Origin: a virus | Direction: 5' to 3' (one strand) | DNA length: 42,390 bases | Virus record (IMG/VR): IMGVR_UViG_3300025666_000018 | Span: 1 to 42,390 of that record | Part shown: in pieces, positions 6,370 to 40,010 of the stretch | Numbering within the stretch: the first letter of the stretch is position 1 | Layout: each line of letters opens with the position of its first letter | Program-made: the position numbers and the translations under genes | The notes under the pieces: generated by a model | The model's database searches: none | Seen by the model: only the letters and a program-made list of their open reading frames with translations | Told to the model about the DNA's origin: nothing

Positions 6370-6707
6370 TGGAAGCACTAATCAAATTAACAGCAGATGA
6401 AGCCCGGTACGAAGCTACTGGGACTTCACTTAAAGGCTATCTAAAGAGAGGTATTAAATTTACTGACCTTTACAAAGTCTTAGGAGAACCAACCTTTAAA
6501 CCAGAAGATTCTGGCGACGGTAAGATTCAATACGAATGGGTCCTTAAGTGGAACGGTAATATCTATACAATCTACGACTGGAAGACCTACAACCAAGACC
6601 ACACTTTAACCGAGTATGACTACTGGCACGTTGGTGCTAAAGTTTACTCTGGTGACTTTGAAGACCTAATTGAGAACATGGTAAATAAGAACTTATGCCT
6701 GAACTAG
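6369..6707 (+). CDS. Hypothetical phage protein
   Basis: 112 residues. A short helix is followed by KYLKRG-like text, then WVLKWNGNIYTIYDWKTYN and YWHVGAK. This aromatic core (tyrosine/tryptophan around a D-W-K turn, then WHxG) resembles a small family shared by large phages, of unknown function. Coupled by TAATG to the gene before it and overlapping the glycosylase start by 13 bp. The C-terminal half is acidic. Confidence 0.65.
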   Translation: MEALIKLTADEARYEATGTSLKGYLKRGIKFTDLYKVLGEPTFKPEDSGDGKIQYEWVLKWNGNIYTIYDWKTYNQDHTLTEYDYWHVGAKVYSGDFEDLIENMVNKNLCLN

Positions 6708-7540
6708 CAGAACTTAAACTGACAGCAGACTACGTTAATCAGTCAACACAAGGCAGAGTCTTTGGTGGGATAGAAAAGAATCCGATCCATAAAGGTGCAG
6801 AAGTCTCTGTGCCTTTCGATCAGTTTGAAATTCAGGCGAAGAGTCGAGGCAAAGAGCTCTTACTAGAGCTTAAAGACCTTAATTCAGACAGAGTCTATCC
6901 AATACGGATGGGTATGGGCATGTCAGGGCACTTCAGGCTAACTCAAAAGGCCCAAGAAGATAAACATGCACACTTAAAGTTCGGTGCCACAGACGGCCAC
7001 GTATTGTCTTTTGTGGACGTGCGACGTTTCGGTAACTGGAATGCAGGTGAGAGCTGGTCAGACAAGCGTGGCCCGGATCCAACTACCGATTATAGAGAAT
7101 TCTTCTTGAATGTGACGACTAATCTGACCAAGGCTAAATTTAACAAGCCACTCTTTGAAGTCCTGATGGACCAAAAGTACTTTAATGGCATTGGTAATTA
7201 TCTAAGAGCAGAGATCATCTACCGTGCTGAAGTTAATCCATTTCTACCAGCTAGAGAGCAACTAACAAGCTACCCAAAGATCTTAGAGCTATGTCGAGAT
7301 ATTCCGATGCTGGCCTACCAAAGAGGTGGTGGCGCAATCAAAGACTGGGATAATCCATTCGGCAAAGAGAGCCAAGTTGGTAAATTTATGCTCTGTTATG
7401 GAAACAAAGAGATGAGTCAACGTATAGACTCTACTGGGCGTCGTTTTTGGTACGACCCACATTGGGACAAGTTAGATCTAGAATCAGAATGGGATTACTA
7501 TTCAGGGCTACCGAACCCAAAAGCTTATGAAAGAACGTAA
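6695..7540 (+). CDS. Formamidopyrimidine/endonuclease VIII-type DNA glycosylase
   Basis: 281 residues. Begins Met-Pro-Glu-Leu; Pro2 and Glu3 are the catalytic pair of the Fpg/Nei family after Met removal. A conserved lysine in SRGKELL (about 53), MSGHF (76-80) and the helix-two-turn-helix DQKYFNGIGNYLRAEIIYRA (159-178, with the family Asn in GIGN) are all present. The usual C-terminal four-cysteine zinc finger is absent; CYGN with GRRFWYDPHW resembles a zincless finger. It should excise oxidised bases and nick the abasic site. A phage role in genome repair or host DNA breakdown is inference. It overlaps the preceding gene. Confidence 0.88.
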   Translation: MPELAELKLTADYVNQSTQGRVFGGIEKNPIHKGAEVSVPFDQFEIQAKSRGKELLLELKDLNSDRVYPIRMGMGMSGHFRLTQKAQEDKHAHLKFGATDGHVLSFVDVRRFGNWNAGESWSDKRGPDPTTDYREFFLNVTTNLTKAKFNKPLFEVLMDQKYFNGIGNYLRAEIIYRAEVNPFLPAREQLTSYPKILELCRDIPMLAYQRGGGAIKDWDNPFGKESQVGKFMLCYGNKEMSQRIDSTGRRFWYDPHWDKLDLESEWDYYSGLPNPKAYERT

Positions 7541-9744: not shown

Positions 9745-10362
9745 ATGTCAAAAACATCCGATTTAAGCTACAGAGAATTAGCAGAGAACTTTTATGCTTC
9801 ACGCAGTGAAAAAGACTACAATGTACTTTACAAGAAGGTAAAGCCAGGACTTAAGTCTTATATCTTTAACATCATTAAAGACTCAGAAGCAACTGGCGAT
9901 GTCTTAGCTAATACTCTGACTAAGCTTTGGACTAAGATAGATCAGTACAAACCAGAGTATCAAGTAACTACATGGCTTTACAAGATAGCATTCAACGAAT
10001 GTCTAAGTCATATTCGTAAGCGTAATCGTAAGTACAGTCTAGATGCAATGCGAGATTATGGGATCGAAGTAACTGAAGGCAACCATACAACAAACATGGC
10101 CGACAATTTACTCTTAGACTCAGAAGAGCGCATGACTGAAGCAGACTTCTACGAAGAAGATGAGTATTTACAAAATCGTTACGAAAGTGCAATTGAGTGT
10201 ATTAACAGCCTTAAGCCAATGTACCGTGAGATTATGCAAGATCGTCTATTTCACAATATGAAGTACGAAGACATTGCAGAGAAATACAACGTATCTCTAC
10301 AGACTGTAAAGAATAGAGTACGTCGCGGAAAAGTTCTAATCCAAAGAGCGATGGGCGAATAA
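9745..10362 (+). CDS. ECF-like RNA polymerase sigma factor
   Basis: 205 residues. Region 2 spans about 15-100: LAENFYASRSEKDYNVLYKK, then the DVLANTLTKLWTKIDQY segment and TTWLYKIAFNECLSHIRKR, which corresponds to the -10-binding helix 2.4. An acidic linker (about 115-145) precedes region 4 (about 150-200: LKPMYREIMQDRL, YEDIAEKYNVSLQTVKNRVRRG), a helix-turn-helix for the -35 side. It should redirect host RNA polymerase. Candidate targets are the ten repeated promoters in this window. Followed at once by the first leader-ORF cassette. Confidence 0.88.
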   Translation: MSKTSDLSYRELAENFYASRSEKDYNVLYKKVKPGLKSYIFNIIKDSEATGDVLANTLTKLWTKIDQYKPEYQVTTWLYKIAFNECLSHIRKRNRKYSLDAMRDYGIEVTEGNHTTNMADNLLLDSEERMTEADFYEEDEYLQNRYESAIECINSLKPMYREIMQDRLFHNMKYEDIAEKYNVSLQTVKNRVRRGKVLIQRAMGE

Positions 10363-10554: not shown

Positions 10555-10594
10555 GTTTTTAGTGTCAAACTTATTTGTTATATTTGCACTGTAA
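10555..10594 (+). promoter_or_regulatory. Promoter P3 at the head of the tRNA locus
   Basis: AGTTTTT at 10554-10560, AGTGTCAA element, -7 box TATATTTG at 10579-10586 (perfect TAnnTTTG) and CACTGTAA. It lies 23 bp upstream of the first mature tRNA, with a boxA-like element between. Confidence 0.8.
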
Positions 10595-10694: not shown

Positions 10695-10768
10695 TCCTCC
10701 ATAGCTCAGTTGGTTAGAGCGGCTGACTGTTAATCAGTAGGTCCCTGGTTCGAGTCCAGGTGGGGGAG
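10695..10768 (+). tRNA. tRNA-Asn(GTT)
   Basis: Acceptor TCCTCCA pairs with TGGGGGA, anticodon loop CTGTTAA, T-loop TTCGAGT. Ends just before the tmRNA acceptor piece. Confidence 0.93.
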
Positions 10769-10770
10769 CA

Positions 10771-11016
10771 AGTTGATTGTCAATGACGCTTATTGGCAGA
10801 CTGTTGGACGCGGGTTCGAATCCCGCCACCTCCACAAGTTCTTTTACATATTACCAAAATATGGGGGTGACCGGCTTTTGACAATGGTTGATAGCGATAG
10901 GAAGAGACGATTGGCGTACGCAAACGACAACTTTGCATTAGCGGCATAAGTGCTGCTGATCTATTAAAGTCAAGGACTTGATAGATCACGTCAGCCTAGA
11001 ACGAAATCTAGGCACT
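10771..11016 (+). ncRNA. ssrA: Circularly permuted (two-piece) tmRNA
   Basis: The 3' (acceptor) piece comes first: a T-arm with 5-bp stem and TTCGAAT loop at 10810-10826, then CACCTCC-A at 10827-10834, matching the usual tmRNA 3' end. A spacer of about 26 nt follows, then the 5' piece starting GGGGGTG at 10863-10869 and a TGACCGGCTTTTGAC stretch like the tmRNA D-region. The two acceptor strands pair over 7 bp with G3-U70, the alanine identity pair. A P2-like helix forms between about 10876-10895 and 10788-10800. The tag frame at 10920-10949 reads ANDNFALAA-stop. Downstream helices lie at 10956-10996 and 10994-11013. No T-arm follows before tRNA-Leu, so the gene is genuinely permuted. Permuted tmRNA is known from alphaproteobacteria, some cyanobacteria and betaproteobacteria. 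The tag resembles the start of the remembered Caulobacter tag (AANDNFA...). Confidence 0.88.
10838..10855 (+). promoter_or_regulatory. boxA-like element 2, in the tmRNA intervening segment
   Basis: GTTCTTTTACATATTACC shares its first 12 bases with the element at 10602. It lies in the segment that must be removed between the acceptor and coding pieces of the permuted tmRNA. Confidence 0.35.
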
Positions 11017-11018
11017 TT

Positions 11019-11104
11019 GGTCGAGTGGTGGAATAGGTAGACACGTCAGACTTAAAATCTGATGGGCAGTAATGCTCGTGCGGGTTCGATTCCCGCCTCG
11101 ACTA
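11019..11104 (+). tRNA. tRNA-Leu(TAA)
   Basis: Acceptor GGTCGAG pairs with CTCGACT, anticodon loop CTTAAAA, long variable arm (class II), T-loop TTCGATT. Confidence 0.93.
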
Positions 11105-11152
11105 CAAAGAAACAAACAGACTCTTTATTCATATAAAGACTGTTAAATGAAT

Positions 11153-11860: not shown

Positions 11861-11875
11861 GTTCTTTAACATACG
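11861..11875 (+). promoter_or_regulatory. boxA-like element 3
   Basis: GTTCTTTAACATACG, the copy closest to E. coli boxA (CTTTAACA). Its end overlaps the first bases of tRNA-Trp. Confidence 0.4.
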
Positions 11876-11943
11876 TCTGACAGGCAAGGTGCCGCACAGG
11901 TCTCCAAAACCTCGTGGGTAGGGTTCGATTCCTTACAGGCGTG
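11873..11943 (+). tRNA. tRNA-Trp(CCA)
   Basis: Acceptor ACGTCTG pairs with CAGGCGT, discriminator G, anticodon loop CTCCAAA, short D-arm. Confidence 0.88.
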
Positions 11944-11973
11944 CAAAAAACTTTGAAAAAAGTTGCAAGAAAG

Positions 11974-12043: not shown

Positions 12044-12188
12044 AAATTAAGAAAATGCAGATATTACTTCTGATTTGAAAGCTGGTCTAACGGCCCAGCC
12101 GATATGCTTAAGTAAGTCTTAAAGAGACCGGCTCTTTTAATATTTGGAGGGATATAGATGCTCCCGAGTAGGTGCAAGGCCTACAAAA
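12044..12188 (+). ncRNA. Unassigned structured RNA region before tRNA-Gln
   Basis: No ORF. Visible hairpins are GCTGG/CCAGC (about 12081-12099), AAAGAG/CTCTTT with a short T-run (about 12120-12139), GGAGGG/CTCCC-like pairing (about 12147-12166) and TAGG/CCTA (about 12170-12185). No known RNA family recognised; could be leader sequence of the tRNA unit. Confidence 0.35.
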
Positions 12189-12265: not shown

Positions 12266-12343
12266 TTGCGATGGTGGTACAGAGACAGTCTCATGAGCTG
12301 TATTGGGTAGCTCCCCTCCGAGGTTCGATTCCTCAATCGCAAC
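12266..12343 (+). other. tRNA-like element with non-standard middle
   Basis: Acceptor strands TTGCGAT/ATCGCAA pair perfectly and a T-arm with TTCGATT loop is present, but the centre does not fold as a tRNA. GAGCTGTATTGGGTAGCTC looks like a D-arm placed where the anticodon arm should be. A CTCATGA loop flanked by ACAGT/GCTGT would read CAT but leaves almost no D-arm; a 9-nt loop reading TGG is a third option. It may be a decayed tRNA or a tRNA mimic. Confidence 0.5.
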
Positions 12344-15399: not shown

Positions 15400-16290
15400 A
15401 TGAATATACTTGCAAATGATGGTTTACATGAACTGGCAATTAATAAATTAGAAGAGCTAGGACATAAGGTCTTCACAGAACATGTTGAGCAGAAAGACTT
15501 GGCAGTCTGGATTAATGAGAATGAGATTGAAGCACTCTTTGTACGCTCAGCGACTAAAGTTAGAGAAGATCTAATCAAGAACTGTCCTAATTTAAAGTAT
15601 ATTGGCCGTGCTGGTGTGGGCCTAGATAATATCGACGTCGACCATGCTCAAGAGCAGGGTCGACATGTCTTTAACACACCAAAAGCAAGTTCAAGATCAG
15701 TGGCTGAACTGGTGATGACTTACATCTATGACTGGAGTCGTAGAGTAGGGCCGGCAAACTACATGATGAGCAACGCTGCGTTCAATGATGTTAAAAAAGG
15801 CATCTCAAGAATCTCGTATGAAGTCCAAGGTAAAACTCTAGGTGTTATTGGCTTTGGCAATATAGGTCAAACGGTGGCCAAGCTAGCTGAAGCAAACGGT
15901 ATGGATATTTTAGTATATGATCCGAATGTAGACTGTAAATGGTCAACTTCAATGGAGACACTCTTGATCGAGTCTGACTTTATTACAGTACATATTGGTG
16001 GCAAAGCTGAAGTGCTTAAGGCTGCTGATTTTGAGATGACAAAACCAAGTGCTGTTGTGATTAACACTTCTCGTGGTGGCTGTGTCAACGAAGAAGATCT
16101 ACTTAATGCTATCAAAGAAAAGCAACTTGCCGGAGCATGTCTGGATGTTTTCACGAATGAACCTGAGCCAGATCGTAGACTCTTAAACAATTCAAGAGTG
16201 ATTGCAACACCACATATCGGTGGCTCAACCAACGAGGCTCAGGTTAAAATTGGACTTGAACTAGTAAGTCAGCTTGAGGAATTAGCATAA
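15400..16290 (+). CDS. serA: D-3-phosphoglycerate dehydrogenase-like 2-hydroxyacid dehydrogenase
   Basis: 296 residues, the catalytic core length without the C-terminal ACT domain. The NAD-binding loop GFGNIG lies at 151-156 and the active-site residues are in place: Arg225 in NTSRGG, Glu254 in FTNEP and His272 in TPHIGGST. IGRAGVGLDNIDV (68-80) is typical of the SerA branch. It should oxidise 3-phosphoglycerate, the first step to serine; another 2-hydroxyacid substrate is possible. Without a regulatory domain it should escape serine feedback. Its 5' region (15352-15399) contains TTTGAAACTTTG, resembling the second-type promoter. An unusual gene for a phage. Confidence 0.88.
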   Translation: MNILANDGLHELAINKLEELGHKVFTEHVEQKDLAVWINENEIEALFVRSATKVREDLIKNCPNLKYIGRAGVGLDNIDVDHAQEQGRHVFNTPKASSRSVAELVMTYIYDWSRRVGPANYMMSNAAFNDVKKGISRISYEVQGKTLGVIGFGNIGQTVAKLAEANGMDILVYDPNVDCKWSTSMETLLIESDFITVHIGGKAEVLKAADFEMTKPSAVVINTSRGGCVNEEDLLNAIKEKQLAGACLDVFTNEPEPDRRLLNNSRVIATPHIGGSTNEAQVKIGLELVSQLEELA

Positions 16291-28526: not shown

Positions 28527-30536
28527 ATGTCATTAGCAGACGGTTACGAAAGTGAAAAAGGTAGAAAGGGGTCGAAGAAGAAAGCGACTCCTTTTCTAGA
28601 TGAGTTTGGTGAAGATCTAACACAACTTGCCGCTGAAGGTAAGCTAGATCCAATTATTGGTAGAGATAAAGAGATCTACCGCATTTGCCAGATCTTGTCC
28701 AGAAGAAAGAAGAACAACCCAATTATTCTTGGAGACCCAGGTGTGGGTAAAACTGCAATTGTAGAAGCGATTGCTCAACGTATTGTTGAGAAGAAAGTAG
28801 CGAGAGTGCTCTTAAACAAGAGAGTTATCTCAATCAACATGACAACGATCGTTGCAGGTACAAAATACCGTGGTGAATTTGAAGAGCGCATGAAGAATAT
28901 TGTTGACGAGCTAAAGATGGCCGACAACGTAATCGTCTTCATTGATGAGATTCATACTATTGTTGGTGCTGGAGGTGTTAGTGGAGCGCTAGATGCTTCA
29001 AACATCCTAAAGCCAGCGTTGGCCAGAGGCCAAGTACAATGTATTGGTGCTACTACACTTGATGAATACCGCGAGAATATCGAGGATGATGGCGCATTAA
29101 CACGTCGTTTTCAAGAGGTGTTTATTGACCCACCTTCAATTGAAGAGACTATTGAGATCTTACACAGAATCAAGTCTAATTATGAAGAGCACCATGCAGT
29201 TGAATATAATGATGAGTCAATCGAAGCCTGTGTGCGCATGAGTGAACGTTACATTAAGCAGCGTGAATTGCCGGATAAAGCAATTGACTTACTTGATGAA
29301 TCTGGCGCTAGAACGCACTTAATGGAAGTTAAAGTACCGGCTAATATCAAAAAGCTTGAGAACAAATGCGAAACTATTAAACTCGATAAGAAACTTGCAG
29401 TTGAAAAACAAGACTATGAACTTGCAGCTCAGTTGAGAGATGCTCAGATGGAATGTGAGTCTGAAGTTTTAGAAGAGACTGAAAAGTGGGAAGCAAGCCT
29501 AAAAACAACAAAACGTAAAGTTACAATCGACGATATTACAGAGACGATTGCAATCCAGACAGGTATTCCAGTGAATAAGCTTGGCGCTGACGACATGAAG
29601 ATGATTAAGAACATGGCTAATAAGCTTAAAGAGCATATCATCGGTCAGGATAAAGCAGTTGAGGCACTTGCACAAGTTATTAAAAGATCACGTACAGGCG
29701 TGGCAAGTCACAAGAAGCCTGTGGGTTCATTTATGTTCTTAGGTCCAACTGGAGTTGGTAAAACTGAGACTGTAAAAGCACTTGCAGAATACTTGTTTGG
29801 TGACACCGATGCAATGATCCGTATCGACATGTCAGAATACCAAGAGAAGTTTAATGTCTCAAGATTGATTGGTTCACCTCCGGGATATATTGGCCATGAA
29901 GACGGTGGTCAGCTAACAGAAGCAGTACGCCGCAAGCCATATTCAGTAGTTCTCTTTGATGAGATTGAGAAGGCGCACCCAGATACATTTAATACGTTAC
30001 TACAAGTGCTTGATGAGGGCCGTCTCACGGACTCTCTAGGCCGCGAGATTGACTTTACCAATACTATTATTGTCATGACTTCAAACGTCGGCGCGCGCAA
30101 GCTAGCGGACTTTGGAACTGGCGTTGGCTTCCAGAGCGCTTCTACAATTGCAACTGAGAATGCTAAGATGGATGCAATCATTAAGAAGGAACTCAAGAAT
30201 AAGTTTAGCCCAGAATTCTTAAACAGACTAGACGATATTATTCTATTCGATCAGCTTTCAAGTGATGACATTATTAAAATCGTTGACATTGAGCTTGATC
30301 TATTCAACGAGCGTATGACAGAGTTAGACTATGTATTTAAGTTTACTAAGGCTGCAAAAGAGTTTTTAGCAGTTGAAGGTTATGACCCAGCATACGGTGC
30401 TAGACCACTTAAGAGAGCAATTCAAAAATATGTAGAAGACTTAATTGCAGATGCGATAGTTGACGGTGATCTTAAACCAGGTAAGACTTACACTGTTAAT
30501 AAGATCAAGACAGACGAGAAACTAAAGCTTAAATAA
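28527..30536 (+). CDS. ClpC-like double AAA+ protein unfoldase
   Basis: 669 residues; the N-terminal Clp adaptor domain is missing, and the chain starts directly before the first AAA+ module. Walker A1 is GDPGVGKT at 69-76, Walker B1 near 136-144 (VFIDEIHTI), UVR-like KQDYELAAQLRDA at 294-306, Walker A2 GPTGVGKT at 406-413, Walker B2 near 474-481. The tripeptide VGF (533-535) sits where ClpA/ClpC insert into ClpP, and the phage encodes ClpP 1.2 kb downstream. The UVR-like helix favours ClpC over ClpA. Together they would unfold and feed substrates, perhaps tmRNA-tagged ones, to ClpP. Confidence 0.93.
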   Translation: MSLADGYESEKGRKGSKKKATPFLDEFGEDLTQLAAEGKLDPIIGRDKEIYRICQILSRRKKNNPIILGDPGVGKTAIVEAIAQRIVEKKVARVLLNKRVISINMTTIVAGTKYRGEFEERMKNIVDELKMADNVIVFIDEIHTIVGAGGVSGALDASNILKPALARGQVQCIGATTLDEYRENIEDDGALTRRFQEVFIDPPSIEETIEILHRIKSNYEEHHAVEYNDESIEACVRMSERYIKQRELPDKAIDLLDESGARTHLMEVKVPANIKKLENKCETIKLDKKLAVEKQDYELAAQLRDAQMECESEVLEETEKWEASLKTTKRKVTIDDITETIAIQTGIPVNKLGADDMKMIKNMANKLKEHIIGQDKAVEALAQVIKRSRTGVASHKKPVGSFMFLGPTGVGKTETVKALAEYLFGDTDAMIRIDMSEYQEKFNVSRLIGSPPGYIGHEDGGQLTEAVRRKPYSVVLFDEIEKAHPDTFNTLLQVLDEGRLTDSLGREIDFTNTIIVMTSNVGARKLADFGTGVGFQSASTIATENAKMDAIIKKELKNKFSPEFLNRLDDIILFDQLSSDDIIKIVDIELDLFNERMTELDYVFKFTKAAKEFLAVEGYDPAYGARPLKRAIQKYVEDLIADAIVDGDLKPGKTYTVNKIKTDEKLKLK

Positions 30537-31412: not shown

Positions 31413-31724
31413 ATGGCAGAACCGTTAAGAATACACATTGACCCTAGAGCTTTAACAGTAACTGATTTCGATCAGCTGTTAATGAGCAAATACGATATGT
31501 TCTACCGCAGAATAGTAGAATATGTACTTAAAGATATTGAGGAGGGTTCTAAGGATGAAATTATGGCCATCTTAGTAGATGAAGATGGCGTTGAGTATGA
31601 TATGAGTCTACCAAGAGAAGGCTACCTAAAATCATTAAACAAAGCAACTGAATACTTTAGAATGATTGAAGAGTATGAAACATGTGGCCTAATCAAAGAT
31701 ATGATAAAACAAATTGAGAAATGA
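31413..31724 (+). CDS. Small hypothetical protein next to ClpP
   Basis: 103 residues, acidic, mixed helix and strand (PLRIHIDPRALTVTDFDQLL, AILVDEDGVEYDM). No adaptor motif of ClpS or MecB type is seen, but its place, 4 bp overlapping clpP, makes a protease partner worth considering. Confidence 0.6.
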   Translation: MAEPLRIHIDPRALTVTDFDQLLMSKYDMFYRRIVEYVLKDIEEGSKDEIMAILVDEDGVEYDMSLPREGYLKSLNKATEYFRMIEEYETCGLIKDMIKQIEK

Positions 31725-32401
31725 ATTACTATAGTAAAGATAAAGAATTTGAGAGATTCGCAAAGAGCGAATTTAACATCGGCTCATCAAAGCTAGATGT
31801 ATATAGCAAACACATCCAAGGCTCAATGACGCCATATATTCTAGAAGAACGAGAGTTGAGAGCAACTCAAATGGACATCTTCTCAAGATTGATGATGGAC
31901 AGATTGCTATGGGTTGCAGGTCCTGTAAATGACCAAATGTCAACTGTTGTCCAAGCTCAATTAATGTTTTTAGACACTACATCAAACGAAGATATTACAA
32001 TGCATATTGATTCTCCAGGTGGAAGTGTTAAATCAGGACTTTCAATGGTTGACGTGATGGAATACATTAAAGCTGACATCCGCACAATTAATACAGGTAT
32101 GGCAGCTTCGATGGGTTCAGTACTTCTTGGCGCTGGTACAAAAGGTAAAAGAATGTCATTAAGACACTCAACGACAATGTTACACCAGTCATCAGGTGGA
32201 TTCAGTGGAAACATTCAAGATGCTGAAATCGACTGGCAAGAATGGAAAAAAGTTAACAATGAGCTTTTTGTCCTACTTGGATCTTACTGTGGTAAAAGTG
32301 CAGAACAAGTTAAAGAAGATGCTACGCGTGACTTCTGGTTAAATGCAGAAGAAGCTGTTAAATACGGTATCATCGACGAAGTAATTAAGCCGAATAAATA
32401 A
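31721..32401 (+). CDS. clpP: ClpP serine protease subunit
   Basis: 226 residues, a little longer than bacterial ClpP. IDSPGGS forms the oxyanion block; the catalytic triad is Ser130 (GMAASMGS), His155 (MLHQSSGG) and Asp204 (ATRDFW), with the same spacing as E. coli (25 and 49 residues). An extra 30-40 residues at the N-terminus may be a propeptide. Pairs with the ClpC-like ATPase at 28527. It degrades proteins in the cytoplasm; the target set during infection is unknown. Confidence 0.94.
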   Translation: MNYYSKDKEFERFAKSEFNIGSSKLDVYSKHIQGSMTPYILEERELRATQMDIFSRLMMDRLLWVAGPVNDQMSTVVQAQLMFLDTTSNEDITMHIDSPGGSVKSGLSMVDVMEYIKADIRTINTGMAASMGSVLLGAGTKGKRMSLRHSTTMLHQSSGGFSGNIQDAEIDWQEWKKVNNELFVLLGSYCGKSAEQVKEDATRDFWLNAEEAVKYGIIDEVIKPNK

Positions 32402-33519: not shown

Positions 33520-36339
33520 ATGCCAACAGTAAAAAGAGATAATCTTATCATAACACAGGCCAGCTTTACAGAAGTGTTAAGAGGCCAAGAAGCATTTTTT
33601 ACTTTTAACTTGTACCAAGATATACAGGGTAAAGATGTTAATACTAGTCTATTAGATGACTATGTGTTTACGCTTAAAGATTTAGACAACCAAACAGTAA
33701 AGACTTTTTCCAAGTCATTAGGTAACGTAACGCTCGGTAATCCGATTACAAGTAGCTTTAGAATACACCTTTCTGGCGAAGAGACCCTAGAATTAAAATC
33801 AGGTAGCCTCTTCTTAACAGTGTATATTCGCATGGGCATAAAGCGTCTTACTTTTGCACCGTTTAAAACTGGTGTAATCTACGCTTATGGAGACCAGTTA
33901 AAGAGTGGTGAGATCTTAACTAGATTTACACACCCAACTACAATTTACAGAGTACATGGTTTTGACTACAGTGGTGCAAATCCAAAACTGGGTGAAGTTG
34001 TGTTAAACTCAGCACTTACACGCTCTACAACTAAAGCGCTTTTTAACAAGACCGATTCTTTAGGTAAGATTAACGCTTATCTTGAGACAATGTTGCTTAA
34101 GAGATTCGATGAAGATGGGGCTAAACTTAATCTGATTTTAACTAACGCAAACGACACAACACAGTATGCAATCTATAAAGTTACAGGTTGGGCAAGAGTT
34201 GACCTTAATACAGACGGCTCAAGCTCAGGCTCTTTAGACGGCATTGAAGTAGATCTAGAATACGAAGGCGGCTCATCAATCGAAGGTGAGTCTTTCTCAT
34301 TTATAGTTAACGATGAGATTGGTCTTTGGATTGAATCTTTTAGTGACAATGCAAACACAATTGAAGTTAACTACACAGGAACATCTTACGGTGACGTTGG
34401 CAGAATTGTATTTAGAGGTGGTTTCGACGTAAGACCTAATGTTAACGGTGGAGTTGACGTTTGGGTACCGGACATTCCAGAACTAGATGAGATTAGAGTT
34501 ATTCACGGTGAAGACGGTACGGACGGTACGGACGGTACAAGTGGAACTTCAGGTACTTCTGGTACAAGTGGTACATCTGGTTCTTCAGGAACATCTGGAA
34601 CCGATGGAACTTCAGGCACTTCTGGTACAAGTGGCACTTCTGGTACAAGTGGCACATCTGGCACAAGCGGTGTAGATGGCACTTCAATTACTATTTTAGG
34701 AACACTTGAATCTGAAGATCAATTACCAGTTGATGAAAACTCTAACGGTGACGGTTATATTATAGCAGGCGATCTATGGACATGGAATCGTCCTCAATGG
34801 AATAATGTTGGTCAAATCCAAGGCCCTGCTGGTTCTTCAGGTTCATCAGGCACATCTGGTTCTTCAGGTACTTCTGGCACAAGCGGCACAGACGGAACTT
34901 CAGGCACAGACGGAACTTCAGGCACAGACGGAACTTCAGGCACAGACGGAACTTCAGGCACCTCAGGCACTTCTGGTTCATCAGGCACATCTGGTTCATC
35001 AGGTACAAGTGGTTCTTCAGGTGTAAACGGTGTAGACGGTACTTATTTAGGTACGGATGGAACAAGCGGTTCTTCAGGTATATCAGGTACATCAGGTACA
35101 TCTGGCAGTAGCGGAATAGACGGTGCACAGGCTACGGCTATAACACCAACGATTAAAAACTTAGAATTCTTTTCATGGTCTTCCGGCTCAGCTTATGTTT
35201 CGGGAACTCCAAGTCTCCCCGGTGAAAGTTTAACTATAGAAATCCATGTAAGTGTATCTGATTACAATATTATTAGATTAGTTGCAGACGTTGAAGGTGA
35301 TCTAGCTTATGCAATACAAAGATCTATTAATTCAACAAATCCTACTATAATTTATGAAGGTCAAACATATACTAACGATGTAATTAATCTTGAGTTTGTT
35401 GACTCACACGGTGCTATTGGGGGAGATATAGTTACTTATGAGATATTAGGCTATGGTATTGGTGCGTCCAACCCACGCCTCGGAAGACTTTCGGATCTAC
35501 AGCTTGTTGCATATGAATTTATGCATGCGTTAGCGGCAGGTCATTCATCAGGAACTAGTGGTTCTTCAGGAACTAGTGGCTCTTCGGGAACTAGTGGCTC
35601 TTCGGGAACAAGTGGTTCAAGTGGTGTTAATGGAACTATCGGTCCTGTTGGCAAAGACGGAACATCCGGTTCTTCAGGTACTTCTGGAAGTTCAGGAGTA
35701 AACGGCCAGGGCGTACCGACAGGTGGTACAGCCGGTCAAGCACTTGTTAAAATTGACGGCACAAACTACAATACACAATGGTCTGATGTAGCTGCAAGCG
35801 GTGGTACAACACAAAGATTAACAGACTACTCAGAAATACACTACAATGCAAAAATTCAGAGCGGACCAGCTAATGGTTATAACACACTGCAATCCGCGCC
35901 CGGAGGTACATTTATAGATTTAAAATCTAGTTTAATGCCAATAGATGCATCCTCGGTTAACCTGTTACAGCCTATAACTACAGGTGGGCTTTATTATGCA
36001 CTTAATAATATTAATGGGGAGAATATATCAAGCTGGCACAGAGTAGAATACAATATTAATTTGACAGGGTCTGAAAGTACTGAAGTTATTACAGTCTCTG
36101 TTTTTGACGCGGCGGTAAGTGGTAGCATCTATCAAGATGAATTTACTTTACCGGCTGCTAGAACCTATGTATTTAGTGCAGAGTTTGTTGCTCAATTAAA
36201 TAATACGAGCGCTCTAATACTCCAGCTATCATCTGCTACAACCAATTCATCTGTAATTATTAATCAATTTAATTTTAGAGCAGCACAGTACCAAGAAGGT
36301 ACAGTACATGGCAATGATAACTGGCAGGGCTACGTATAA
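33520..36339 (+). CDS. Collagen-like fibre protein 1
   Basis: 939 residues. The N-terminal 325 or so form a beta-rich module shared with the next gene ([19 protein letters not shown] here). Collagen-like Gly-X-Y tracts rich in GTSGSSG span about residues 330-389, 437-536 and 676-731, with folded inserts between. Before the last domain is the phage fibre linker [14 protein letters not shown], then a beta-rich tip. A trimeric, surface-exposed host-binding fibre is the natural reading. The repeats use many Gly, Ser and Thr codons. A promoter-like GATAAATAAATAG lies at about 33486. Confidence 0.85.
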
Positions 36340-36398: not shown

Positions 36399-39300
36399 AT
36401 GCCATCAGTAAATAGTAATGATTTTATTCTACAGATACCTGAGTTAGTAAAGGTTAACCGCGGCGTACAAGCCCTGGTTACTACAACATTACACCAGAAT
36501 TATCTAGGTAATCTAGTAGATATTGTCAACTTAAATGACGTTACGATAAAAGTAGTTAACCACGCAGGAACGACGGTTAAAATACTTAAAAAATCAGATT
36601 CAACTTTAACGTACGGAACCGGATCTACAAAAGGTAGATTTATTATCAATCTAAGCTCAACTGAGACTTTAGGCTTACCAGAAGGCGATGTCTATCTAGA
36701 CGTTGTCATCAATTCAGGTGTTAAAGTAGTTACAATGCCAAGACTAAAAGTTGGTTTCACAATCGACGGTGGCCAGGCATTACCAGACGGATCAGTTGGA
36801 GGTAGATTTACAATCCCAGCTCCGATCTATGAAGTTATATCTTTAAACTACGGTAACGATTTACCAGCAGCAGGACAAGTTGTCTTAAGCTCTTCTAATC
36901 CAAATGGTTTAACGAAGATTGTCTTAAACAACACTGATGATCTAGGTAAGAGAAATGTATATGTAGAAACATTACTACAGAAAAGATTTACTGATGATGG
37001 CGCAGAGTTAAACCTCTTTGTTACTAATGTTAACAACACAAGTGAATATGCAATCTTTAAGGTTGTTTCATGGCAGAGAGTTGAAATTCTAGACTCAGGT
37101 GCTAGCAATAACTCTGAAATGGTGGATGGTATTGAGATTACCGTTTCACCAGAAGGTGCTTCTAGAACTGAGACTCAAGTTACTAAATTTGAAGTTGGTG
37201 ATACTCTAGGTTTCTTCTTAGAGTCTTTTGCAAACAACAGCATTACAGTAGTAAATGGCTCAACAGACTACGAAGGTACAAAGAGTATTGAATTTGTTGG
37301 CGGCATGACCGTTAGTGATAACGGCAACGGCAATATTGCAGTTAACATCCCTTATTTTGACAACGTAACCGGTACTATCAACGGTGTAGATGGTCAAGAT
37401 GGAACAAGTGGTTCTTCGGGTGTTAATGGTGCTGATGGAACTTCAGGAAGCAGCGGTGTTAGTGGTACAGACGGAACAAGTGGTTCTTCAGGAACAAGCG
37501 GTTCATCTGGTGTTAATGGTGCTGATGGAACAGGTGGTTCATCTGGTGTTAACGGTGCTGACGGAGCAGATGGTCAAGACGGAACAAGCGGTTCATCTGG
37601 TGTTAACGGAGCTGATGGCGCAGATGGTGCTGACGGCCAAGATGGAACATCAGGAAGCAGTGGTATAAACGGAGCCAATGGTGTTGATGGAACAAGCGGT
37701 TCATCAGGTGTTAACGGCGCAGACGGAAACGACGGTATTGATGGTACTTCAGGTTCTTCCGGTATAAACGGTGTAAATGGTATCGATGGAACAAGTGGTT
37801 CATCAGGTGTTAATGGTTTAGACGGAACAAGTGGTTCATCAGGTGTTAACGGAGTTAACGGAGTTAACGGTGTTGATGGAACTTCAGGAAGTAGTGGTGT
37901 TAATGGTGCTGACGGCCAAGATGGTGCTGACGGCCAAGATGGAACAAGCGGAAGTAGTGGTATTAATGGTGCTGACGGCCAAGATGGTGCTGACGGCCAA
38001 GATGGAACAAGCGGAAGTAGTGGTATAAACGGAGTTGCTGGTGCAACTGGACCTGCTGGAACTTCAGGAAGCAGTGGTGTTAATGGTGCTGACGGCCAAG
38101 ATGGTGCTGCCGGCCAAGATGGAACAAGCGGAAGTAGTGGTATTAATGGTGCTGATGGTGTTAACGGTCAAGATGGGACAAGCGGCTCATCTGGTATAAA
38201 CGGAGTTGCTGGTGCAACTGGACCTGCTGGAGCTGATGGAACTTCAGGAAGCAGTGGTGTTAATGGTGCTGACGGCCAAGATGGTGCTGCCGGCGAAGAC
38301 GGAACAAGCGGTTCATCTGGTATAAACGGAGCCAATGGTGTTGACGGAACATCTGGTTCATCAGGTATTAACGGAGTTGATGGCACAAGCGGTTCATCTG
38401 GTATCAGCGGAACTTCAGGTTCGAGTGGTGTTAGTGGCGCAGACGGAAATGACGGTACAGATGGTACTTCAGGTAGTAGCGGTGTTAACGGTCAAGATGG
38501 GACAAGCGGCTCATCCGGTATAAACGGAGTTGCTGGTGAAACTGGACCTGCGGGTGCGGATGGTACATCAGGAAGTAGCGGTGTTAATGGTGCTGACGGC
38601 CAAGATGGTGCAGATGGCCAAGATGGAACAAGCGGTTCATCCGGTATTAACGGAGCTAATGGTGTTGACGGTCAAGACGGAACATCAGGTTCAAGTGGTA
38701 TCAGTGGTGTTGATGGAAACGATGGTACGGACGGTACTTCAGGTTCAAGTGGTATCAGTGGTGTTGATGGAAACGATGGTACGGACGGTACTTCAGGTTC
38801 AAGTGGTGTTAATGGTGCAGACGGAAATGACGGTACGGACGGTACTTCAGGTTCTTCAGGTATCAATGGTGCTGACGGAAACGATGGTACGGACGGGACT
38901 TCAGGTTCTTCAGGTATCAATGGTGCTGATGGAAATAATGGTACTGATGGAACAAGCGGTTCATCTGGTGTTGATGGTGTATCAAATGTACCAGGTCCTG
39001 CAGGTACTGATGGAACAAGTGGTTCTTCAGGTGTTAACGGAGCTGATGGAGCCGATGGTACAAGTGGTTCTTCAGGTGTTAACGGAGCTGATGGAGCCGA
39101 TGGTACAAGTGGTTCTTCAGGTGTTAACGGTGCTGATGGAAACGATGGTACAGACGGTACTTCAGGTTCAAGCGGTGTTAATGGTGCTGACGGAAACGAC
39201 GGTACAGACGGAACAAGTGGTTCTTCAGGTATTAATGGTGCTGACGGAAACGATGGTACAGACGGAACAAGTGGTTCTTCAGGTGTTAATGGTGCTGACG

Positions 39301-40010
39301 GAAATAATGGTACAGACGGAACAAGTGGTTCTTCAGGTATTAATGGTGCAGATGGAAATGACGGTACGGATGGTACAAGTGGTTCAAGCGGTGTTAACGG
39401 TGCTGACGGAAATGACGGTACGGATGGTACAAGTGGTTCTTCAGGTATCTCTGGTGAAGGCGTACCAACAGGTGGTACCGAAGGTCAAGCTCTTGTTAAA
39501 GCATCTGCTACAAACTACGATACAGAATGGGCTGATGCTGCAAGTGGAGTAACAAACTATCTACTAAGACTTGAATATGATACTTCAAATCACCTTGTAA
39601 ATAGTACAACAGATAATAGATTTATAGCAGCAACTGGATTTGAAACTTCAGGTGCAAGCGTGGACAGCGTAAGCGTAGATACTGGAAACACAATCTATAC
39701 AATTACAGTATCGTTCAGCAACGAATCTAATCCACCACAAAACATATTAGTTTATGCATGGGATCCTGTAAACTACGACTATCAAGTACATCCATATAGA
39801 GTTGACTCTTCGGATCTAACAATTGATACAGACAACGGTGACTTTACATCATCTAACAACCAGTTCACACCAAATATTTTTGGTAGCTTTGGTTCAACAA
39901 GTTTGACGATCGACGTAAGACAGGATTACATCAAGTACGTGAACGCAATTGGCTTAGGTGGTAATAGAAGATTCGCACACGCATATTTAATAATATCATT
40001 CAACGGATAA
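36399..40010 (+). CDS. Collagen-like fibre protein 2, long repeat
   Basis: 1203 residues. The N-terminal 320 or so are paralogous to fibre 1 (NTDDLGKRNVYVETLLQKR). A single Gly-X-Y tract spans roughly residues 328-1022 with two recurring modules, GTSGSSG and GVNGADG. GVPTGGTEGQALVK again precedes the C-terminal domain (about 1030-1203). A trimeric fibre about 200 nm long is possible from collagen geometry; this is inference. Repeat blocks near 38700-39460 are nearly identical at the DNA level, so length may change by recombination. Confidence 0.85.
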   Translation: MPSVNSNDFILQIPELVKVNRGVQALVTTTLHQNYLGNLVDIVNLNDVTIKVVNHAGTTVKILKKSDSTLTYGTGSTKGRFIINLSSTETLGLPEGDVYLDVVINSGVKVVTMPRLKVGFTIDGGQALPDGSVGGRFTIPAPIYEVISLNYGNDLPAAGQVVLSSSNPNGLTKIVLNNTDDLGKRNVYVETLLQKRFTDDGAELNLFVTNVNNTSEYAIFKVVSWQRVEILDSGASNNSEMVDGIEITVSPEGASRTETQVTKFEVGDTLGFFLESFANNSITVVNGSTDYEGTKSIEFVGGMTVSDNGNGNIAVNIPYFDNVTGTINGVDGQDGTSGSSGVNGADGTSGSSGVSGTDGTSGSSGTSGSSGVNGADGTGGSSGVNGADGADGQDGTSGSSGVNGADGADGADGQDGTSGSSGINGANGVDGTSGSSGVNGADGNDGIDGTSGSSGINGVNGIDGTSGSSGVNGLDGTSGSSGVNGVNGVNGVDGTSGSSGVNGADGQDGADGQDGTSGSSGINGADGQDGADGQDGTSGSSGINGVAGATGPAGTSGSSGVNGADGQDGAAGQDGTSGSSGINGADGVNGQDGTSGSSGINGVAGATGPAGADGTSGSSGVNGADGQDGAAGEDGTSGSSGINGANGVDGTSGSSGINGVDGTSGSSGISGTSGSSGVSGADGNDGTDGTSGSSGVNGQDGTSGSSGINGVAGETGPAGADGTSGSSGVNGADGQDGADGQDGTSGSSGINGANGVDGQDGTSGSSGISGVDGNDGTDGTSGSSGISGVDGNDGTDGTSGSSGVNGADGNDGTDGTSGSSGINGADGNDGTDGTSGSSGINGADGNNGTDGTSGSSGVDGVSNVPGPAGTDGTSGSSGVNGADGADGTSGSSGVNGADGADGTSGSSGVNGADGNDGTDGTSGSSGVNGADGNDGTDGTSGSSGINGADGNDGTDGTSGSSGVNGADGNNGTDGTSGSSGINGADGNDGTDGTSGSSGVNGADGNDGTDGTSGSSGISGEGVPTGGTEGQALVKASATNYDTEWADAASGVTNYLLRLEYDTSNHLVNSTTDNRFIAATGFETSGASVDSVSVDTGNTIYTITVSFSNESNPPQNILVYAWDPVNYDYQVHPYRVDSSDLTIDTDNGDFTSSNNQFTPNIFGSFGSTSLTIDVRQDYIKYVNAIGLGGNRRFAHAYLIISFNG

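Follow-up and report, generated by a model that had tools for sequence, protein, structure and literature searches.

Does the tRNA array of this phage hold a tmRNA gene whose two halves have changed places, and if so, what kind of tmRNA is it? The window (the complete virus record, 42,390 bases) contains 25 tRNA genes between 10617 and 15029 according to ARAGORN, which called no tmRNA. The original prediction had placed a circularly permuted tmRNA inside this array, and the observation is confirmed: the segment 10772-11013 on the + strand is a permuted, two-piece tmRNA gene. When the entire window was searched against 4227 Rfam families, RF04321 (tmRNA_permuted) matched 10775-10949 with 67.6 bits (E-value 4.9e-11), above its gathering score of 47, and its alignment puts the T-arm, the acceptor strands, the connector helix and the tag where they had been predicted. 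The 3' tRNA-like half (elements at 10810-10834) lies upstream of the 5' half (10863-10869), with an intervening segment between them; the acceptor strands pair over 7 bp with a G3-U70 pair next to a T-arm, and the predicted tag ANDNFALAA is indeed read from an alanine resume codon through a hydrophobic end, ALAA, to a stop codon (GCA AAC GAC AAC TTT GCA TTA GCG GCA TAA). The parts are listed in Table 1.

A better fold in the normal gene order was not found. The standard model RF00023 reached 39.1 bits over 10762-10837, below its cut-off of 47, which leaves the gene outside the standard family, and the next T-arm downstream is already used by the complete tRNA-Leu (11019-11105), which leaves no free partner for the normal order. 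The proposed check with covariance models was borne out for the merged permuted model, but not for the lineage models: the tmRNA scored 50.4 bits (52.2 in another run) with RF01850 (beta, gathering score 84), 33.6 bits with RF01851 (cyano, gathering score 70) and 22.7 bits, the lowest of the three, with RF01849 (alpha, gathering score 50). Five further records of its clade of viral tmRNAs (G001, G005, G044, G046 and G047) are likewise below the cut-off in all three lineage models, as are several viral permuted tmRNAs from outside the clade in a set of 19 records. The hint of transfer from the Alphaproteobacteria is not upheld: the resemblance of the tag alone does not demonstrate transfer, and an origin in that lineage is not supported by the model that scores lowest.

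Table 1. Parts of the two-piece tmRNA gene and its neighbours (window positions; percentages are paired cells in the 14-row alignment, and double-changed pairs differ on both sides)
Feature	Position	Strand	Remarks
Promoter-like repeat TTTT-N19-TATATTTG, upstream of tRNA/tmRNA array	10556-10586	+	
tRNA-Asn abutting acceptor piece	10695-10769	+	ARAGORN
Connector helix P2c, acceptor-piece strand	10772-10781	+	pairs with 10906-10915; 97.8% paired, 5 of 10 pairs double-changed
Connector helix P2b, acceptor-piece strand	10789-10794	+	pairs with 10896-10901; 97.6% paired, 2 of 6 double-changed
Connector helix P2a, acceptor-piece strand	10801-10806	+	pairs with 10882-10887; 100% paired, 5 of 6 double-changed
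T-arm	10810-10826	+	100% paired, 3 of 5 pairs double-changed; RF04321 alignment
3' strand of acceptor stem (10827-10833), with discriminator A10834	10827-10834	+	RF04321 alignment, 14-row alignment
Intervening segment	10835-10862	+	expected from the gene order to be removed in processing; variable in alignment
Acceptor stem 5' strand, putative mature 5' end of coding piece	10863-10869	+	100% paired, 3 of 7 double-changed
D-loop-like segment ACCGGCUUUUGA	10870-10881	+	RF04321 alignment, 14-row alignment
P2a, coding-piece strand	10882-10887	+	
P2b, coding-piece strand	10896-10901	+	
P2c, coding-piece strand	10906-10915	+	
Spacer, connector helix to resume codon	10916-10919	+	four bases in 14 of 14 rows
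Tag frame ANDNFALAA and stop TAA	10920-10949	+	
Stop-codon hairpin	10940-10957	+	10940-10945 pairs with 10952-10957; 93.8% paired
Long hairpin	10958-10987	+	single-sequence folding
ACGU motif	10988-10991	+	11-15 bases ahead of next loop, 15 of 16 rows
3'-terminal hairpin, loop ACGAAA at 11001-11006	10994-11013	+	
tRNA-Leu adjoining coding piece	11019-11105	+	ARAGORN

An identical gene, letter for letter over 325 bases, is present in the 176,489-base contig IMGVR_UViG_3300025876_000005 (hereafter the 176-kb contig). Diverged relatives were collected with a T-arm-to-D-loop DNA pattern and with a tag DNA pattern, the latter returning 61 stretches, most of which are other tmRNAs. The resulting alignment (A3) holds 14 distinct viral sequences, six of them found without the tag pattern (the window, L012, L008, L068, L069 and L072) and eight fetched by it (L239, L249, L268, L273, L286, L260, L277 and L290). 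Excluded were L011, which is the sequence of the window itself, L280, which does not differ from L249 over 340 bases, L285/L108 (the contig of L067; over 301 bases L067 has the same letters as L066, the contig of L072) and L288, which has lost its acceptor piece; L268 was kept despite the absence of the ACGU/ACGAAA module described below.

The tested structure consists of 40 pairs, in the acceptor stem, the T-arm, P2a, P2b, P2c and the stop-codon hairpin. Over the 14 rows, 98.2% of the 545 cells can pair (shuffled mean 84.1) and 19 of the 40 pairs show changes in both partners (shuffled mean 11.7). The covariation score of 0.510 drops to 0.226 after shuffling and to at most 0.138 when the structure is slid by 1-3 columns. 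The P2-like helix that had been proposed to join the pieces is present as three covarying segments, which hold 12 of the 19 double-changed pairs and are absent from every search pattern. The acceptor 5' strands GGGGGUG, GGGGAUG, GGGGCCG and GGGCAUG each stand opposite a matching 3' strand, and the G3-U70 pair, the identity pair for alanine, is invariant in all 14 rows. RNAalifold recovers identical stems unaided; it also folds the tag back on itself (GCAAA with UUUGC), a pairing that is not counted here, since most of those letters were prescribed by the pattern with which eight of the 14 rows were collected. The score and E-value with RF04321, together with the preservation of the structure through compensatory changes in diverged relatives, rule out a chance match.

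The gene is unusual in the stretch ahead of the tag. Where the RF04321 consensus line has about 38 positions including a hairpin (counted by eye), every row has only four bases between the connector helix and the resume codon, so that, as read from the alignment, a PK1 cannot fit there in any of the 14 sequences. The usual architecture, a typical rather than a defining trait, is thus not that of the window's tmRNA, as two-piece tmRNAs typically carry both PK1 and PK2 on the coding piece (PMC3985003). A PK2-like contact is conceivable between CGU at 10989-10991 and ACG at 11001-11003, which could form a small pseudoknot near the 3' end; the letters involved hardly vary. The AUAG/AUAA tetramer that is preferred upstream of the resume codon (PMC4236655) is absent from the window's tmRNA; instead, 13 of the 14 rows conserve an A two bases ahead of that codon. 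Since an E. coli tmRNA in which PK1 was swapped for single-stranded RNA still tags (PMC4236655), the lack of PK1 is compatible with function in the clade. The gene represents a two-piece tmRNA without PK1, in a clade whose tested members fall below the cut-offs of the three lineage models, and it offers a natural test of the minimum that is needed to set the resume frame.

The tag itself is well kept. The six sequences found without the tag pattern encode ANDNFALAA (three times), ADGEFALAA, ANDEFALAA and ANDKFALAA, and all five variable sites across FALAA-stop in these six are silent; the frame is open in all 14 rows, eight of which were fetched by the tag pattern. Single-sequence folds of eight members all place three hairpins after the tag: the stop-codon hairpin, the long hairpin and the 3'-terminal hairpin of Table 1 (z-scores -3.1 to -6.8). 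The 3'-terminal loop reads ACGAAA or ACGUAA in 15 of 16 rows, near-copies included, with ACGU starting 11-15 bases before it, L268 being the exception. ARAGORN gave the correct tag for only three of the 14 aligned genes (L249, L273 and L286), and for L280 outside the alignment; in view of such misses, tmRNA genes of this kind may be under-reported in phage annotation.

The position of the gene within the array suggests how its ends could be made. The discriminator A10834 is followed by CAA, as in 12 of the 21 tRNAs checked (from 23 Rfam tRNA matches), and CCA follows the discriminator in one of those 21. With CCA missing from the DNA of the tmRNA and of 20 of the 21 tRNAs, a CCA-adding enzyme must finish the ends. 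The start of the acceptor 5' strand, 10863, is a putative RNase P site, and because tRNA-Asn stops at 10769 and tRNA-Leu starts at 11019, tRNA enzymes could set all four ends of the tmRNA, with RNase P acting at 10863 and 11019 and 3' processing after 10769 and 10834.

The promoter-like repeat of Table 1, behind which the array starts, has eight sites across the window when one mismatch is allowed (0.88 expected), and TTTTTNNTGTCANNNTTTTTTATTATATTT is found in eight + strand copies (5915, 9684, 10556, 11975, 16686, 18796, 21244 and 21822) at up to three mismatches (none expected); the patterns were written after the sites had been seen, so that the expected counts flatter the enrichment. The Bacteroidota promoter consensus, TTTG-N17-22-TAnnTTTG, is not enriched in the window (2 matches, 1.55 expected). 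Elsewhere in the array, the non-coding stretch CTAACGGCCCAGCNGATATGCTT (12087-12109) is conserved together with its flanks in L012, L065, L068 and L288. All Rfam families stay below their cut-offs at this place, and it is possibly a structured RNA of a new type. Two tRNA-like stretches with a T-arm, at about 11870-11945 and 12266-12343, lie below the calling level of ARAGORN and Rfam. No Rfam family other than tRNA and tmRNA reaches its cut-off in the window.

The original prediction had also named a probable Bacteroidota phage, and the phage matches of a protein of the same phage agree with this. Protein L118:8067-9830 of the 176-kb contig matches 31 of 50,697 phage records, of which 15 belong to Prevotella (Lak), five to Tenacibaculum, two to Chryseobacterium, one to Flavobacterium, six to uncultured phages and two to PAU, listed under Sphingomonas; some phages are counted twice among the 31 (GenBank and RefSeq). 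A second protein of this contig matches six records only, all of uncultured huge phages of 462-735 kb. Bacteroidetes hosts have been predicted for five huge-phage genomes larger than 634 kb, and tmRNA and SmpB have been reported among huge-phage genes (both in PMC7162821). Among NCBIfam models, TIGR02985 (Sig70_bacteroi1) fits the sigma factor at 9745-10362 best, although below the cut-off (83 of 126 bits). The lack of enrichment of the Bacteroidota promoter consensus speaks against such a host. There are thus good grounds, as far as protein matches go, to regard the window's phage as a large Bacteroidota phage. Proteins in common with the 176-kb contig were found for 11 of 16 clade loci (best hits of 33-100% identity). 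We are less sure of a Bacteroidota host for every clade member, as the other five loci (L239, L277, L288, L290 and L069) share no protein with that contig in the stretch compared.

The ClpA/C-like protein of the window matches phages of many hosts (169 records) and holds no host evidence. A genome scan with the same protein was rejected as a host clue: it returned ClpC-like genes, mostly of Bacillota, and among 80 of the 187 none is titled Bacteroidota. Among the other genes of the window, 33520-36339 and 36399-40010 encode two long collagen-repeat proteins, which are probably tail fibres, 6695-7540 a formamidopyrimidine-DNA glycosylase-like protein and 15400-16290, after the tRNA array, a D-isomer 2-hydroxyacid dehydrogenase-like protein.

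The distribution of the gene is patchy. A set of 47 loci was chosen through the ClpA/C-like protein, and in the 41 records searched (L015, L025, L031, L041, L050 and L051 were left out) a permuted tmRNA was found in four (G004, G040, G043 and G044), of which G040 and G044 are near-copies; G004 is the same phage as G000. Of the 14 records of this set larger than 100 kb, four carry a permuted tmRNA, and no standard one was detected at an E-value of 1e-15. Among 13 named Bacteroidota or huge phage records, none has the permuted form and five have a standard tmRNA (RF00023 above the cut-off: LR756500, LR756504, Lak-A1, Lak-C1 and Lak-B7); these searches left out MA9V-2 (W14) and used stricter filters, at the loss of some weak matches. 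G043 (347 kb) carries a beta-like permuted tmRNA (L062, 1458-1816) with the tag ANEELYAQAA and 85.5 bits with RF01850. In L288 (6478-6660) the coding piece is nearly identical to that of L290, the acceptor piece and the 5' acceptor strand are gone, and a tRNA-Gln occupies their place; the tmRNA gene is therefore dispensable in at least one phage. One of the DNA-pattern searches found permuted tmRNAs in 49 stretches of viral contigs. The T-arm-to-D-loop pattern of the clade gave no match in 84,980 genomes; the pattern misses members that are one base shorter (L072), and the scan does not exclude cellular copies.

No SmpB was found in 22 records, six of which carry the clade tmRNA, and the same search detected SmpB in the control genome of Bacteroides ihuae; all 22 are classed as linear, and may thus be fragments. 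The window encodes a ClpA/C-like AAA+ unfoldase (28527-30536) that has a UVR motif and, in addition, a VGF segment presumably resembling the ClpP-docking loop, and a ClpP (31721-32401; PF00574, 199 bits) in which, by eye, the catalytic serine, histidine and aspartate are in their expected positions. The two genes are 1.2 kb apart, with thymidylate synthase and a small frame between them. Both proteins occur in four of 18 clade-tmRNA records, the broken L288 included, and these represent two phages (the window and G004, which is the same phage, and the near-copies G040 and G044); this co-occurrence is biased, as it was the unfoldase that led to G004, G040 and G044. ClpP and the unfoldase also occur together in the huge phages LR756502 and LR745206, in which no tmRNA was detected. 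A link between the tmRNA tag and degradation by the phage ClpP and unfoldase is offered as a suggestion.

We consider it probable (roughly 80%) that this locus of a large Bacteroidota phage is functional and encodes a compact two-piece tmRNA, acting in trans-translation with the SmpB of the host. The sequence, the gene order, the conserved structure, the open tag frame and the phage context were computed here; transcription, processing, charging, use of SmpB, tagging and degradation would follow from them along these lines. The tmRNA would be transcribed together with the phage tRNA array and cut by RNase P at 10863, with 3' processing and CCA addition after A10834, and its outer ends would be set by the neighbouring tRNA-Asn and tRNA-Leu. 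The connector helix and the acceptor stem would keep the acceptor piece (about 10770-10834) and the coding piece (about 10863-11018) joined, and the resulting RNA would be charged with alanine, bind host SmpB and enter stalled ribosomes. ANDNFALAA would then be added to the unfinished protein and the ribosome released, and the -LAA end would direct the product to Clp proteases, perhaps to the phage ClpP with its ClpA/C-like unfoldase. Since both the room for PK1 and the AUAG/AUAA tetramer are lacking, the RNA might tag only weakly or serve some other use instead.

Compatible with this working gene is an origin by transfer, in which a permuted gene from an alphaproteobacterial, betaproteobacterial or cyanobacterial lineage, or from their phages, replaced a standard phage tmRNA. 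We regard such a transfer as about as likely as not. Proteobacterial tags begin with AND, as does the tag of the window, and the connector helix has a purine-rich internal stretch (by eye) like that of other viral permuted tmRNAs. Marine phages often carry permuted tmRNAs (PMC9004378), and to these come the 49 stretches in viral contigs. The scores below cut-off in the three lineage models argue against transfer, although several other viral permuted tmRNAs share them, so that they are not distinctive. The ACGU/ACGAAA module of the clade, which by eye is also present in contig G048 and in the crAss-like phage cr50_1, points the same way. Nor is the clade placed by a tree built from the tRNA-like parts of 36 permuted and 4 standard tmRNAs, 40 in all: L008, L068, L011 and L012 group together (99/95), L072 lies in an unresolved fork and L069 was omitted, being identical over this part. 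The bootstrap was still unsettled and the branches of the standard rows are long, so that no origin is read from this tree.

The tmRNA of cr50_1 (MT774375, 39374-39869, equal to L293 645-1140), a phage that we take to belong to the Crassvirales, with Bacteroidales hosts, is annotated as SsrA; both ARAGORN and RF04321 (60.3 bits) show that this tmRNA is actually permuted. Its coding piece and clade member L249 have a run of 12 bases in common, ACTACGAAAGTG, which follows an ACGT; it differs from the window's tmRNA in its long intervening segment and its tag GNNFVTDYTAIGA. It was not among the blastn matches of the window's tmRNA (best 20 of 105 records, and a tally of organism names); when the tmRNAs were compared with phages by blastn, 13-19% of the query was matched, around the T-arm, among the matches listed. 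G048 shares five proteins with the 176-kb contig (23-40% identity) and has a permuted tmRNA whose tag, ANNQEMLMAA, agrees in 7 of 10 letters with the tag GNNAEMRMAA of the standard tmRNA of LR756500. Read together, these likenesses would suggest a permuted type common to Bacteroidota phages; the match is short and the likeness of the module was first seen by eye. A more tentative proposal, to which we give less credence than to transfer, is a fourth independent permutation of tmRNA within the Bacteroidota phages, in which one branch from an ancestor with the standard gene, still found in LR756500, LR756504 and Lak, became permuted and lost PK1, leaving a minimal tmRNA, its connector helix nearly adjoining the resume codon, that in some phages would serve a private route of tagging and degradation with phage ClpP and unfoldase.

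The absence of PK1 and of the usual upstream tetramer, and the failure to find a phage SmpB in the 22 records, could also be expected of a decoy, an RNA that is made and folded and ties up the SmpB of the host, but does not tag. There is a precedent in the TLD-only tmRNA of mycobacteriophage DS6A, a DS6A-like molecule being a strong inhibitor of tmRNA, perhaps by titrating SmpB (PMC4131195). We consider this unlikely: a decoy needs no tag, yet the frame is open throughout the alignment (with the reservation on pattern-fetched rows given above), the differences over FALAA-stop are silent in the pattern-independent sequences, the stop-codon hairpin is kept, and the E. coli tmRNA with a replaced PK1 tags. 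That the locus is a decaying or accidental, functionless copy in an array that acquires cellular RNA genes is highly improbable, for its patchy occurrence (four of the 41 records) weighs little when records may be fragments, and against the broken relative L288 stand the strong compensatory change over 14 sequences, the conserved tag and the similar tRNA neighbours around the clade tmRNA in several contigs. The preferred reading therefore remains that of a working tmRNA.

How does this tmRNA compare with the known systems? That it is unusual holds in part. Permuted phage tmRNAs have been published before: two-piece forms account for 53 of 133 unique phage tmRNA structures, 50 of the 53 being from marine or aquatic samples (PMC9004378), and the 2025 tmRNA database holds 79 bacteriophage and 11,946 permuted sequences (PMC11915505). 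The SsrA annotation of cr50_1 likewise precedes this work. In the part of the literature searched, no Bacteroidota phage with a two-piece tmRNA was encountered. The tmRNA published for the flavobacterial phage Calle (PMC8776804) is of the standard form in Cellulophaga phage Calle_1, as is that of Cellulophaga phage phi38:1. Like the marine phage permuted tmRNAs, e.g. that of methylophage Melnitz, the window's tmRNA is phage-borne and in two pieces. The phages named in the available part of that report (PMC9004378) have OM43, SAR11 and cyanobacterial hosts, not Bacteroidota. In Melnitz a glutamine riboswitch accompanies the tmRNA; in the window, Rfam shows only tRNAs and the tmRNA at its cut-offs.

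With the two-piece tmRNAs of the alphaproteobacteria, betaproteobacteria and cyanobacteria (RF01849, RF01850 and RF01851, merged in RF04321) the gene shares its order, the acceptor stem with G3-U70, the T-arm, the connector helix between the pieces, the alanine resume codon and a tag ending in ALAA. It differs from them in having four bases instead of about 38 before the resume codon, without PK1, and in its 3' hairpins with ACGU and the ACGAAA loop. Finally, the huge phages LR756500, LR756504, Lak-A1, Lak-C1 and Lak-B7 are distant relatives of the window's phage, and their tmRNAs have the one-piece order and different tags (e.g. GNNAEMRMAA), whereas that of the window is in two pieces. Since the permuted and the standard form occur in one broad group of huge phages, the change in gene order can be traced and tested.
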